Below, in pieces: positions 11,384-13,167 of a DNA stretch of 64,000 nucleotides. A model generated the notes under the pieces. The model did not search any database. It worked only from the letters and a program-made list of their open reading frames with translations, and was not told where the DNA came from. How positions within the stretch are numbered: the stretch's first letter is position 1; every line of letters begins with the position of its first letter. Made by a program: the position numbers and the translations under genes. This DNA comes from Agreia sp. VKM Ac-1783 (GTDB taxonomy: Bacteria > Actinomycetota > Actinomycetes > Actinomycetales > Microbacteriaceae), in NCBI RefSeq assembly GCF_900177765.1, contig NZ_FXWI01000002.1, forward strand, positions 930,001 to 994,000. Direction: 5' to 3'.

Positions 11384-12130
11384 ATGAACATCACCGGAAA
11401 CACCATCTTCATTCCCGGCGCCACGTCGGGACTCGGACTCGGCCTGGCCCTGCGCTTTCAGGCGGCCGGCAACCACGTGATCGTGGGAGGGCGACGCACC
11501 GAATTGCTCGACCAGATCGTTGCTGAGCATCCCGGAATCGACGCAGTGCAGATCGACACCGCAGATTCCTCCTCTATCGAACGGGCGACGACACAGGTCG
11601 TCGCCGAGTACCCCGACCTCGACACCGTGATCCTGATGGCCGGAATCATGGAGCTCGAAGACCTGCACACGGCCGACTTCCTCGAGACCGCCGAGCGCAC
11701 GATCGCCACGAACCTGCTCGGCCCGATCCGACTCATCGCTGCTCTCGTGCCGCATCTGGCAACGCGTCCGAGCTCCACGATCATGACCGTCTCCTCCGGC
11801 CTCGCCTTCGTGCCGCTGCCGGCCACGCCCACGTATAGCGCGACGAAGGCCGCCATCCATTCGTTCTCGCAGAGCCTGCGCGTGCAACTGGCCGACACGG
11901 CGATCGAGGTTCTCGAGCTCGCGCCGCCGGCGGTCGCCACGAGCCTCATGGGTCAGGAGGACGACCCGAACGCCATGCCCGTCGAGGAATTCCTCGACGA
12001 GACCATGTCGATCCTCGAAGCGAATCCGGATGCGTCGGAGATTCTCGTAGACCGCGTGCGGTTCCTGAGGTTCGCCGAAGCGGAGGGACGCACCGACGAC
12101 GTGCTCGCCCTGCTCAGCTCTCGCCACTGA
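11384..12130 (+). CDS. Short-chain dehydrogenase/reductase
   Basis: NAD(P)-dependent classical SDR of 248 aa. The dinucleotide-binding motif is GATSGLGLGLA near residue 12, the catalytic Ser is in SSGLAF, and the YxxxK pair is in YSATKAA. The MxGI after strand 4 reads LMAGIM rather than the usual NNAG, typical of the DltE-like subfamily usually paired with MmyB-type regulators. The ATG at 11384 is chosen because an upstream ATG at 11333 would extend into the promoter region. The substrate is unknown; XRE control suggests response to a small hydrophobic ligand. Confidence 0.9.
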   Translation: MNITGNTIFIPGATSGLGLGLALRFQAAGNHVIVGGRRTELLDQIVAEHPGIDAVQIDTADSSSIERATTQVVAEYPDLDTVILMAGIMELEDLHTADFLETAERTIATNLLGPIRLIAALVPHLATRPSSTIMTVSSGLAFVPLPATPTYSATKAAIHSFSQSLRVQLADTAIEVLELAPPAVATSLMGQEDDPNAMPVEEFLDETMSILEANPDASEILVDRVRFLRFAEAEGRTDDVLALLSSRH

Positions 12131-12143
12131 TCGACGGCGGCGT

Positions 12144-12149
12144 TACGCT
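12144..12149 (+). promoter_or_regulatory. Likely -10 box for a structured leader
   Basis: TACGCT just after the SDR stop, 7 nt before a GTG that opens a seven-codon ORF. Transcription would give a leader of about 160 nt ahead of the pentapeptide-repeat gene. Confidence 0.4.
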
Positions 12150-12156
12150 TGTCTCA

Positions 12157-12180
12157 GTGAAACTCTCTTTCTCTCTGTGA
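12157..12180 (+). CDS. Candidate leaderless leader peptide (7 codons)
   Basis: GTG AAA CTC TCT TTC TCT CTG TGA encodes MKLSFSL. It begins 7 nt after TACGCT, the same geometry as a dozen leaderless genes in this window, so a ribosome could start at the very 5' end of the transcript. It is followed by strong stem-loops and then the pentapeptide-repeat gene. Its TCTTTCT can also pair with AGAAAGA at 12302-12308, the only SD-like sequence of the downstream gene. It may be a cis-acting attenuator peptide; translation is not demonstrated. Confidence 0.4.
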   Translation: MKLSFSL

Positions 12181-12222
12181 CCCGGAGTCAATTCGTCGAC
12201 ATCCGTTCGCTCCTCTCGCGAG

Positions 12223-12283
12223 GGCCGGTGATTTCGTGTGGCCGGAAAGGGAGCTCCGTGTGGAGCTCCCCATCCCCCCGGCC
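12223..12283 (+). promoter_or_regulatory. Strong hairpin with alternative pairing in the leader
   Basis: A perfect 9-bp stem GGGAGCTCC / GGAGCTCCC with GTGT loop (12249-12270) sits inside an outer stem GGCCGG (12240-12245) / CCGGCC (12278-12283). An earlier GGCCGG at 12223-12228 can pair with the same CCGGCC, or with GGCC at 12240, giving mutually exclusive folds. No U-tract follows, so it is not a standard intrinsic terminator. Confidence 0.6.
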
Positions 12284-12318
12284 TTCCTCCGAAACCACCT
12301 CAGAAAGACCTCTCACTG

Positions 12319-13167
12319 ATGACATCCACCGACTCTTCCGACGCGCGCACAGACACTCGGTCGGCCCTTCGCGCTGACTGCGCGAACTGCTTCGCCCTCT
12401 GCTGCACCGCCTTCGGGTTCCAGAGATCCGCGGACTTTCCGCTCGACAAGCCCGCGGGAACCCCGTGCTCGAATCTCACCGAGGCATTCTCCTGCTCCAT
12501 CCACGACGCCTTGCGACCGCGAGGATTTCGCGGCTGCACTGTGTTCGACTGCTTCGGTGCGGGCCAATACGTGTCCCGCACCCTGTTCGGCGGCACGAGC
12601 TGGCGAGAACGCCCCGATACGAGCGCAGCCATGTTCGGCACCTTCGCCGTCGCGCGGCAACTGCACGAGATGCTCTGGTATCTCGTCGAAGCGGCCGAGC
12701 GCACGACCGCATCAGAGCACGACGAGCAGGTGAAGCAGCTCCGCGGCGACATTCGGCAGACGCTCGACGGCGATGCGTCGAGTGTCCTCGCGTTCGACGT
12801 CGAGCGTCTTCGCGCCGATGTTCGGCATCTGTTGATCGAGGTGAGCGAAGAAGTGCGCGGCGGATATGCCTCCCAAGACGTCCCCCGCGATCTGCACCCG
12901 TCGGCCGACCTGGTCGGTCGCGACCTGCGATCACGTCGCCTGTGCGGTGCTGACCTCCGCGGCGCTTACCTCATCGCCGCCGATCTCCGGCACGCCGATC
13001 TGACGAGCGTCGACCTGCTCGGTGCGGATCTGCGCGACGCGCGCCTCGACGGCGCAGACCTCTCGAGCGCTCTCTTTCTCACGCAGATGCAGGTCGATGC
13101 CGCTCAGGGCGACCGGTCGACCGCCTTGCCTAACTTTCTCCGGCGCCCGCAGCACTGGCCGGGCTAG
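12319..13167 (+). CDS. Cysteine-cluster and pentapeptide-repeat protein
   Basis: A 282-aa two-part protein of unknown function. The N-terminal half contains a dense cysteine cluster (CANCFALCC, then PCSNL, FSCSIH, GCTVFDC), suggesting metal or Fe-S binding. The middle is helical and charged. The C-terminal 70 residues are pentapeptide repeats of the A(D/N)LXX type (GADLRGAYL, AADLRHADL, GADLRDARL, GADLSSALF), which fold as a right-handed quadrilateral beta-helix. The ATG at 12319 is preferred over the longer frame that would run through the leader hairpin. Some pentapeptide proteins (MfpA, Qnr) protect gyrase, but nothing here shows that role. Confidence 0.85.
   Translation: MTSTDSSDARTDTRSALRADCANCFALCCTAFGFQRSADFPLDKPAGTPCSNLTEAFSCSIHDALRPRGFRGCTVFDCFGAGQYVSRTLFGGTSWRERPDTSAAMFGTFAVARQLHEMLWYLVEAAERTTASEHDEQVKQLRGDIRQTLDGDASSVLAFDVERLRADVRHLLIEVSEEVRGGYASQDVPRDLHPSADLVGRDLRSRRLCGADLRGAYLIAADLRHADLTSVDLLGADLRDARLDGADLSSALFLTQMQVDAAQGDRSTALPNFLRRPQHWPG

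Follow-up and report, generated by a model that had tools for sequence, protein, structure and literature searches.

The window analysed here is a 64,000-nucleotide stretch of the Agreia sp. VKM Ac-1783 genome (contig NZ_FXWI01000002.1), and coordinates are counted from its first letter. A short-chain dehydrogenase gene ends at 12130, and the stretch from there to the next start codon, ATG 12319, holds the hexamer TACGCT, a short open reading frame (here called the uORF) and then a GC-rich segment. The gene starting at this ATG, which encodes a protein with a cysteine cluster and pentapeptide repeats, is preceded by a structured, conserved leader of 162 nt (Table 1). A first-pass annotation of the region had described a -10 box, a GTG ORF in leaderless position (encoding MKLSFSL), two GGCCGG copies (12223 and 12240) and one CCGGCC (12278), a perfect 9-bp stem (GGGAGCTCC/GGAGCTCCC, at 12249/12262) and complementary TCTTTCT and AGAAAGA segments, all of which we found where it had placed them. 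The spacing of the -10 box suggests the first base of GTG 12157 as the 5' end of the transcript.

Table 1. Features of the leader and of the gene downstream. Counts of two-sided changes come from a set of 61 leaders.
Feature	Position	Strand	Remarks
-10 box TACGCT	12144-12149	+	7 nt ahead of GTG
uORF, GTG AAA CTC TCT TTC TCT CTG TGA	12157-12180	+	seven codons and stop; leaderless-type
P0 5' arm, outer part GTGA	12157-12160	+	partner TCAC 12313-12316
P0 5' arm, inner part TCTTTCT	12166-12172	+	partner AGAAAGA 12302-12308
P1 hairpin CTCTG-TGACC-CGGAG	12173-12187	+	uORF stop inside loop
P2, alternative hairpin	12195-12211	+	bases in common with P3; 94.5% of cells paired (22 leaders)
P3 hairpin	12208-12227	+	two-sided changes at 4/5 pairs
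P4 5' arm, conserved core GGUGAUUUCG	12228-12236	+	two-sided changes at 5/9 P4 pairs
P4 3' arm	12290-12298	+	adjoins SD on its 5' side; covariation
P5, arms 12240-12244 and 12278-12282	12240-12282	+	encloses P6; two-sided changes at 1/3 pairs
P6 hairpin	12248-12271	+	includes the perfect 9-bp stem; two-sided changes at 7/10 pairs, 89.1% of cells paired
Shine-Dalgarno-like (SD) AGAAAGA	12302-12308	+	predicted sequestered within P0 (fold and accessibility prediction)
Regulated gene (predicted target), 282 aa	12319-13167	+	N-terminal Cys cluster, helical middle, C-terminal pentapeptide repeats

The gene product carries the motifs CxxC(F/Y/V)xLCC and DCxGAGQ in its Cys-rich N-terminus, and its AlphaFold model has a pLDDT of 86.4. 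The best sequence and fold matches are pentapeptide proteins; Pfam returns pentapeptide models only at E <= 0.001, and NCBIfam matches lie far under their cut-offs. We saw no named counterpart of the Cys part in the sequence and fold searches. A possible likeness to CxxCxxCC proteins that chelate Zn or Fe is not borne out by Pfam. Among the matches listed, the gene family spans Bacillales to Streptomyces. Inspection by eye of the ORFs at 15 loci revealed no shared neighbour gene; the neighbours vary.

Conservation of the seven-codon uORF

We scanned 207 upstream stretches for a TANNNT box, an ATG, GTG or TTG start and a stop at codon 8, and 70 matched. One match (L234, a TTG in Metasolibacillus) was left out as chance, L071 and the stop-less L024 were added to give 71 leaders, and removal of 7 identical ones left 64 non-identical leaders. 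All 64 start with GTG, though the scan also permitted ATG and TTG. Exactly seven codons and then a stop are found in 63 of them (61 TGA and 2 TAG, with CGA in L024), and the GTG follows a TANNNT box, itself a demand of the search and hence present in 64/64, at a spacing of 7 nt in 43 leaders and 8 nt in 21. Leader length ranges from 144 to 182 nt while the length of the ORF stays fixed. Recurring in 63/64 leaders, the box, GTG, seven codons and stop seen in the window form an arrangement beyond chance.

The demand for a box and a codon-8 stop could bias this count. For the bias check we used the first 22 leaders, which had been chosen by eye, and the pattern GTGA plus TG(T/C)GACCC with a free distance (15-24 nt) and no box required. 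The distance between the two motifs was identical in 22/22, a stop was present in 21/22 and a box in 22/22. A search with model R2 of the 136 fetched loci that had no detected uORF, which could miss very diverged leaders, found one additional leader only (L114, E 2.7e-37). L114 (G1004, C69) is an intact-looking RNA before a second, decayed gene fragment (a partial match with 1 TAA), and its start is GCG, not GTG.

The 64 leaders encode 44 different seven-residue peptides, and codon differences between similar leaders number 648 replacement vs. 46 silent; the uORF peptide is therefore not conserved. The parallel drawn earlier with polycysteine ORFs is a loose one. The spacing from the -10 box agrees with a start codon at the transcript 5' end; one Cys occurs in just 9/64 peptides and two in none. 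P1 is reduced to at most three of its five pairs in 15 of the 64 leaders; all 15 retain the stop, two of them as TAG (L032 and L092), an argument that the ORF is translated and its length fixed. Comparison of the leaders shows the geometry of the uORF to be conserved, and from these sequences we infer that it is translated in leaderless fashion.

The uORF and the main start lie in one frame in 48/64 leaders (the majority in 24/31 clusters), and 16 leaders are out of frame. In L024 (family genome G374; leader 2335-2499, - strand), the uORF TGA has become CGA and a second in-frame UGA, in the core, has become UUA. With both in-frame UGAs lost, the leaderless GTG ORF and the main ORF are joined in a single reading frame; this naturally occurring fusion may circumvent the switch proposed below. 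L096 and L174 each repeat a CTCTTTGACCCGGA-like segment around the uORF stop, and so have two copies of the stop motif.

Distribution and history of the leader

Of the 8 genomes of the genus, 6 have a protein match, five at full length and one weakly, by its repeats; further matches were found in 83 of 398 genomes of the family and in 45 of 325 of a second family, Micrococcaceae. The leader is shared by 22 of the first 30 family loci, and L032 also has the uORF. Among 567 loci in named genomes, the best 80 include 17 with a full-length model match on the gene's strand, 16 with E < 0.01 and one (L177) with E 0.18.

The protein tree comprises 128 proteins; it leaves out four loci that yielded none and, for their shortness, the stretches of 491 bases (L098-L164). 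The leader accompanies 61 of the 65 proteins that fall to one side of a supported branch (96/90), in Microbacteriaceae, Micrococcaceae, Rhodococcus and Speluncibacter, and none of the 63 on the other side, which includes Streptomyces, Bacillales and others. Within the clade it is missing at L013 and L085 (at both of which the SD end alone remains), at L080, and at L079 (where the contig ends), with no R2 match at any of them. Homologues that lack both uORF and stems, envisaged earlier as counter-evidence, thus do exist outside one clade (63/63 proteins), but inside it there are only three apparent losses. The simplest reading would be one origin, three losses, and exchange among the four leader-bearing groups. 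At L098 (G1011) the leader is also missing, with no R2 match. Only 6 nt separate a TANNNT box from the main ATG there, which would make the gene itself leaderless.

The covariance search of the family matched 22 of 398 genomes, once each and always at the pentapeptide gene; the same 22 had built the model, and L032 (G050) was missed. Such searches apply stricter filters over more than 40 genomes and lose weak matches. The order search matched 10 of 396 genomes: two already in the model, five new at the gene (G402, G503, G555, G678 and, at E 0.008, G705), and three weak matches elsewhere (E 0.001-0.006) that were taken as chance. In the class search 3 of 226 matched, two at the pentapeptide gene and one as a 41-base fragment. 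The covariance models found no other genes under the leader RNA in the family, order and class searches.

Folding, covariation and access to the Shine-Dalgarno sequence

Folded from 12157, the window RNA reaches -65.3 kcal/mol (z -3.7), and 0/200 shuffles were as good. The outermost predicted helix of this copy joins GTGA+TCTTTCT to AGAAAGA+TCAC and so brings uORF and SD together in the predicted fold. The minimum-energy fold of the window copy lacks P1, which is present in most of the 22 folded relatives.

An alignment of leaders had been suggested as a check on uORF and stems. Run here, it gives the uORF in 63/64 leaders, as above, and two-sided changes at 25/40 pairs in a final covariation set of 61 leaders (the 64 minus the near copies L020, L023 and L174). 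The corresponding count is 14-22 when partners are slid; 127 cells carry two-sided changes vs. 45 shuffled and 39-79 slid, and 80.3% of cells are paired vs. 37-52% slid, comparisons in which the structure is favoured over slid versions because it was derived from the same alignment on which it is tested. On every one of the five measures, 0/500 shuffles were as good as the true structure. In the first 22 leaders 11/47 pairs had changed on both sides (0/500 shuffles), a structure slid by +1 also gave 11 such pairs, and further pair types were no better than shuffled (419/500).

Helix by helix, two-sided changes affect 4/5 pairs of P1, which reads for example GTCCG/CGGAC in Rhodococcus triatomae (L179), and the fractions in Table 1 for P3 to P6. 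Core bases are conserved across families: GGUGAUU, followed by GUGCGCC or GUGUGCC. Conservation of the helices is thus shown by comparison; the covariation supports P1-P6 and, less strongly, a pairing between the uORF and the SD region.

The mutually exclusive hairpins of the first-pass annotation, in which two GGCCGG copies would compete for one CCGGCC, had to be rejected; both copies occur in 1/64 leaders. P2 and P3, at leader positions 39-43/51-55 and 52-59/64-71 (window 12195-12227), share bases, and both cannot form fully. In the window, P2 contains a mismatch and a G-U pair, one of each, and among the 22 leaders a single P2 pair shows a two-sided change, a compensatory A-U to C-G. Given this change and the overlap, a real alternative hairpin pair may exist there, and P2/P3 may be the alternative hairpins in place of the GGCCGG-based ones.

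Of all the helices P0 is the weakest. In the 61 leaders 4/8 of its pairs changed on both sides, but the paired cells amount to 70.1%, in part because its pairing register shifts between lineages; L025 has no good P0 duplex. A leader's own uORF/RBS duplex beats swapped ones, with 2808 of 362880 permutations as good across 9 genera. By clusters, the permutations as good per 100000 were 161 (31 clusters), 1083 (23), 7086 (14) and 26884 (9), and with single-linkage clusters the test shows nothing (67946/200000). The segment at nt 60-75 yields a z similar to that of P0, which we ascribe to P4. As the swap effect fades with coarser clusters and the paired fraction is low, we regard the P0 pairing as likely and not proven.

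In silico, the mean unpaired fraction of the SD in the 64 leaders is 0.14 when the RNA is free, 0.42 with nt 1-16 blocked and 0.48 with nt 1-36 blocked. The gain exceeds 0.2 in 39/64 and 42/64 leaders, respectively, and is 0.2 or less in 25/64 for the nt 1-16 block. Controls gave 0.17 (nt 50-65 blocked) and 0.30 (nt 4-16 shuffled). An RBS in a stem that a uORF ribosome could open is thus predicted, with moderate covariation. The first-pass annotation had held that ribosome position on the uORF controls access to the SD, and this stands in part: the 5' part of the uORF can pair with the SD, a capacity kept over several families that makes such control plausible, and blocking it opens the SD in silico, but the GGCCGG switching that went with the idea (1/64) falls away.

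A proposed switch, its rivals and known systems

On this comparative basis we consider it somewhat probable that the leader is a cis-acting translational on-switch operated by occupancy of the uORF. Transcription from the G of GTG 12157 would give an mRNA that opens with a start codon, where a 70S ribosome could load with no need of an SD. Leaderless transcripts are described as common in mycobacteria, in which a 5'-end ATG or GTG is enough for leaderless initiation and CTG and TTG are poor (PMC4633059), so a GTG at the putative +1 should load ribosomes. With no ribosome on the uORF, GUGA and codons 4-6 would pair with the SD and the bases just ahead of AUG 12319 (P0), and P0 would close the multibranch P1-P6 fold, holding the gene in the off state. 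Since a ribosome anywhere on the 24-nt ORF would cover the 5' arm of P0, loading of the uORF would free the SD, and the gene would be translated. Both P0 as the off state and the direction of control are inferred.

The start, length and stop of the uORF would count here, and its peptide would not. A ribosome at the fixed stop would also open P1; the rigid length may serve to position the terminating ribosome for this, or to hold the ORF within one footprint. Two natural variants, L114 (GCG start, decayed gene) and L098 (leader gone), may be cited in favour of the switch. A plain occupancy switch requires neither the strongly conserved core GGUGAUU nor exactly seven codons, and it leaves the P4/P5 core unexplained; this core would govern how fast the RNA refolds, or act as an input by binding a ligand or a protein. 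With a uORF of fixed length and free sequence, kept in four families, the position of the ribosome can be told apart from the identity of the peptide. The leader thus offers a compact, testable system for 5'-end 70S initiation controlling an SD-led gene, and a lead on the control of a pentapeptide gene family with no assigned function.

The conserved core would also suit an orphan riboswitch or protein-binding leader, with P2-P6 as aptamer, P0 as expression platform and a leaderless uORF that merely tunes the read-out. Riboswitches have a conserved structured core, as does this leader, whose multibranch fold has highly conserved bases across families; no genome has more than one model match, each of them before this gene, and M. 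tuberculosis ppe2 is reported to combine a riboswitch with a required uORF (PMC11260477). We nevertheless think this explanation rather unlikely: Rfam 15 covariance models gave no match at E <= 1 over the leader (window 11900-12700 and 8 relatives), and an aptamer alone leaves the exact seven-codon ORF unexplained. Attachment to one gene family only offers no metabolic clue to a ligand. It is improbable that the uORF is untranslated and that GTG, 24-nt spacing and TGA belong to the RNA motif alone. GTGA is indeed part of P0, TGA sits in the P1 loop, and the codon changes have no silent-site excess, yet where P1 is broken the stop persists all the same (15/15 leaders, in two of them as TAG), and GTG is invariant (64/64) though its partner bases vary.

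Attenuation by stalling on the uORF, caused by low aminoacyl-tRNA, a drug or the nascent peptide, would account for an architecture resembling leader-peptide attenuators, and mycobacterial polycysteine leaderless ORFs are said to act in this way (Canestrari 2020, via PMC9031893). With no codon run and no conserved peptide, and with the frequent Ser at codon 6 (41/64) and Leu at codon 7 (53/64) falling on P1 bases, we hold it to be quite improbable; a stalling peptide and Cys codons were set aside, neither being conserved over the 64 leaders. A transcription attenuator was likewise rejected, there being 0 terminator-like sites in 12050-12400 (window only), and thus no intrinsic terminator. That the leader is coding, through read-through or an upstream start that extends the N-terminus, seems scarcely credible. 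The frame shared with the main start in 48/64 leaders, a main frame open back to the core in 57/61 and the fused ORF of L024 would agree with it, against which stand the 16/64 leaders out of frame (the majority in 7/31 clusters), the open stretch of L016 with no ATG, GTG or TTG codon, and the compensatory changes in stems.

Set against the rivals, the occupancy switch has partial counterparts among known systems. In nascent-peptide translational attenuators of the erm/cat type, a uORF ribosome opens an RBS-holding stem and the arrest peptide is conserved; here replacement changes dominate and the peptides number 44 in 64 leaders. Where a review treats short leaderless ORFs that act on a downstream gene, it names two kinds only (PMC9031893). 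The mycobacterial polycysteine ORFs (Canestrari 2020, via PMC9031893) resemble our case as actinobacterial ORFs, leaderless (putatively so here), before a regulated gene, but here there is no Cys run, the peptide varies and no link to an amino acid appears. The ilvB-II uORF motif of Corynebacterium is likewise an actinobacterial structured leader with a uORF, described with enrichment in Ile/Leu/Val codons and a terminator stem (PMC11109978), neither of which was found in our leader. The odc1 motif, with uORF-25-1, shares a conserved RNA, an RBS enclosed by a stem (predicted here) and a uORF whose length does not vary; its conserved 11-residue peptide, two adjacent UUG starts and occurrence in alphaproteobacteria, as described in PMC8632094, are unlike what we see.

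The B12 riboswitches of M. tuberculosis ppe2 and metE also pair a structured leader with a translated uORF (putatively translated here) in an actinomycete, and that of ppe2 needs the uORF. The ppe2 uORF is described as having its own SD and overlapping the gene start (PMC11260477), whereas ours has no SD, ends more than 110 nt upstream and comes with no known ligand. An M. tuberculosis Mbox that controls a uORF is reported as another such combination (PMC12810186). In E. coli ptrB, an AUG at the very 5' end helps the 30S subunit to bind the SD-led start; uORF translation is in its authors' view not needed for this, and a start-stop mutant kept 40% (PMC4965119). Our leader may resemble ptrB in effect; both have a 5' start codon (putative here), a short ORF and an SD-led gene downstream. 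The E. coli uAUG mRNAs have varied peptide lengths, and no conserved fold is noted in the account of them (PMC4965119); here we find, across several families, GTG, seven fixed codons, a conserved fold and predicted uORF-SD pairing.

The first-pass annotation knew of no element of this form ahead of a pentapeptide-repeat gene, and we agree: beyond the Rfam 15 result, no published description was found in the open PMC literature, with a listing in supplementary files possible, and neither PMC8632094 nor PMC11109978 uses the word 'pentapeptide' in its main text (0 occurrences each). Because it has no Cys run, known ligand, Rfam match or conserved peptide, we assign the leader to none of these systems, and the switch appears undescribed. 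Tentatively, it may represent a regulatory RNA of a new class: a 5'-terminal start codon would be at once the ribosome entry site and part of the strand that locks the SD, a uORF of about one footprint (seven codons, sequence free) would let the RNA sense leaderless (70S) initiation or termination at a fixed stop, and the P4/P5 core would provide a second input.
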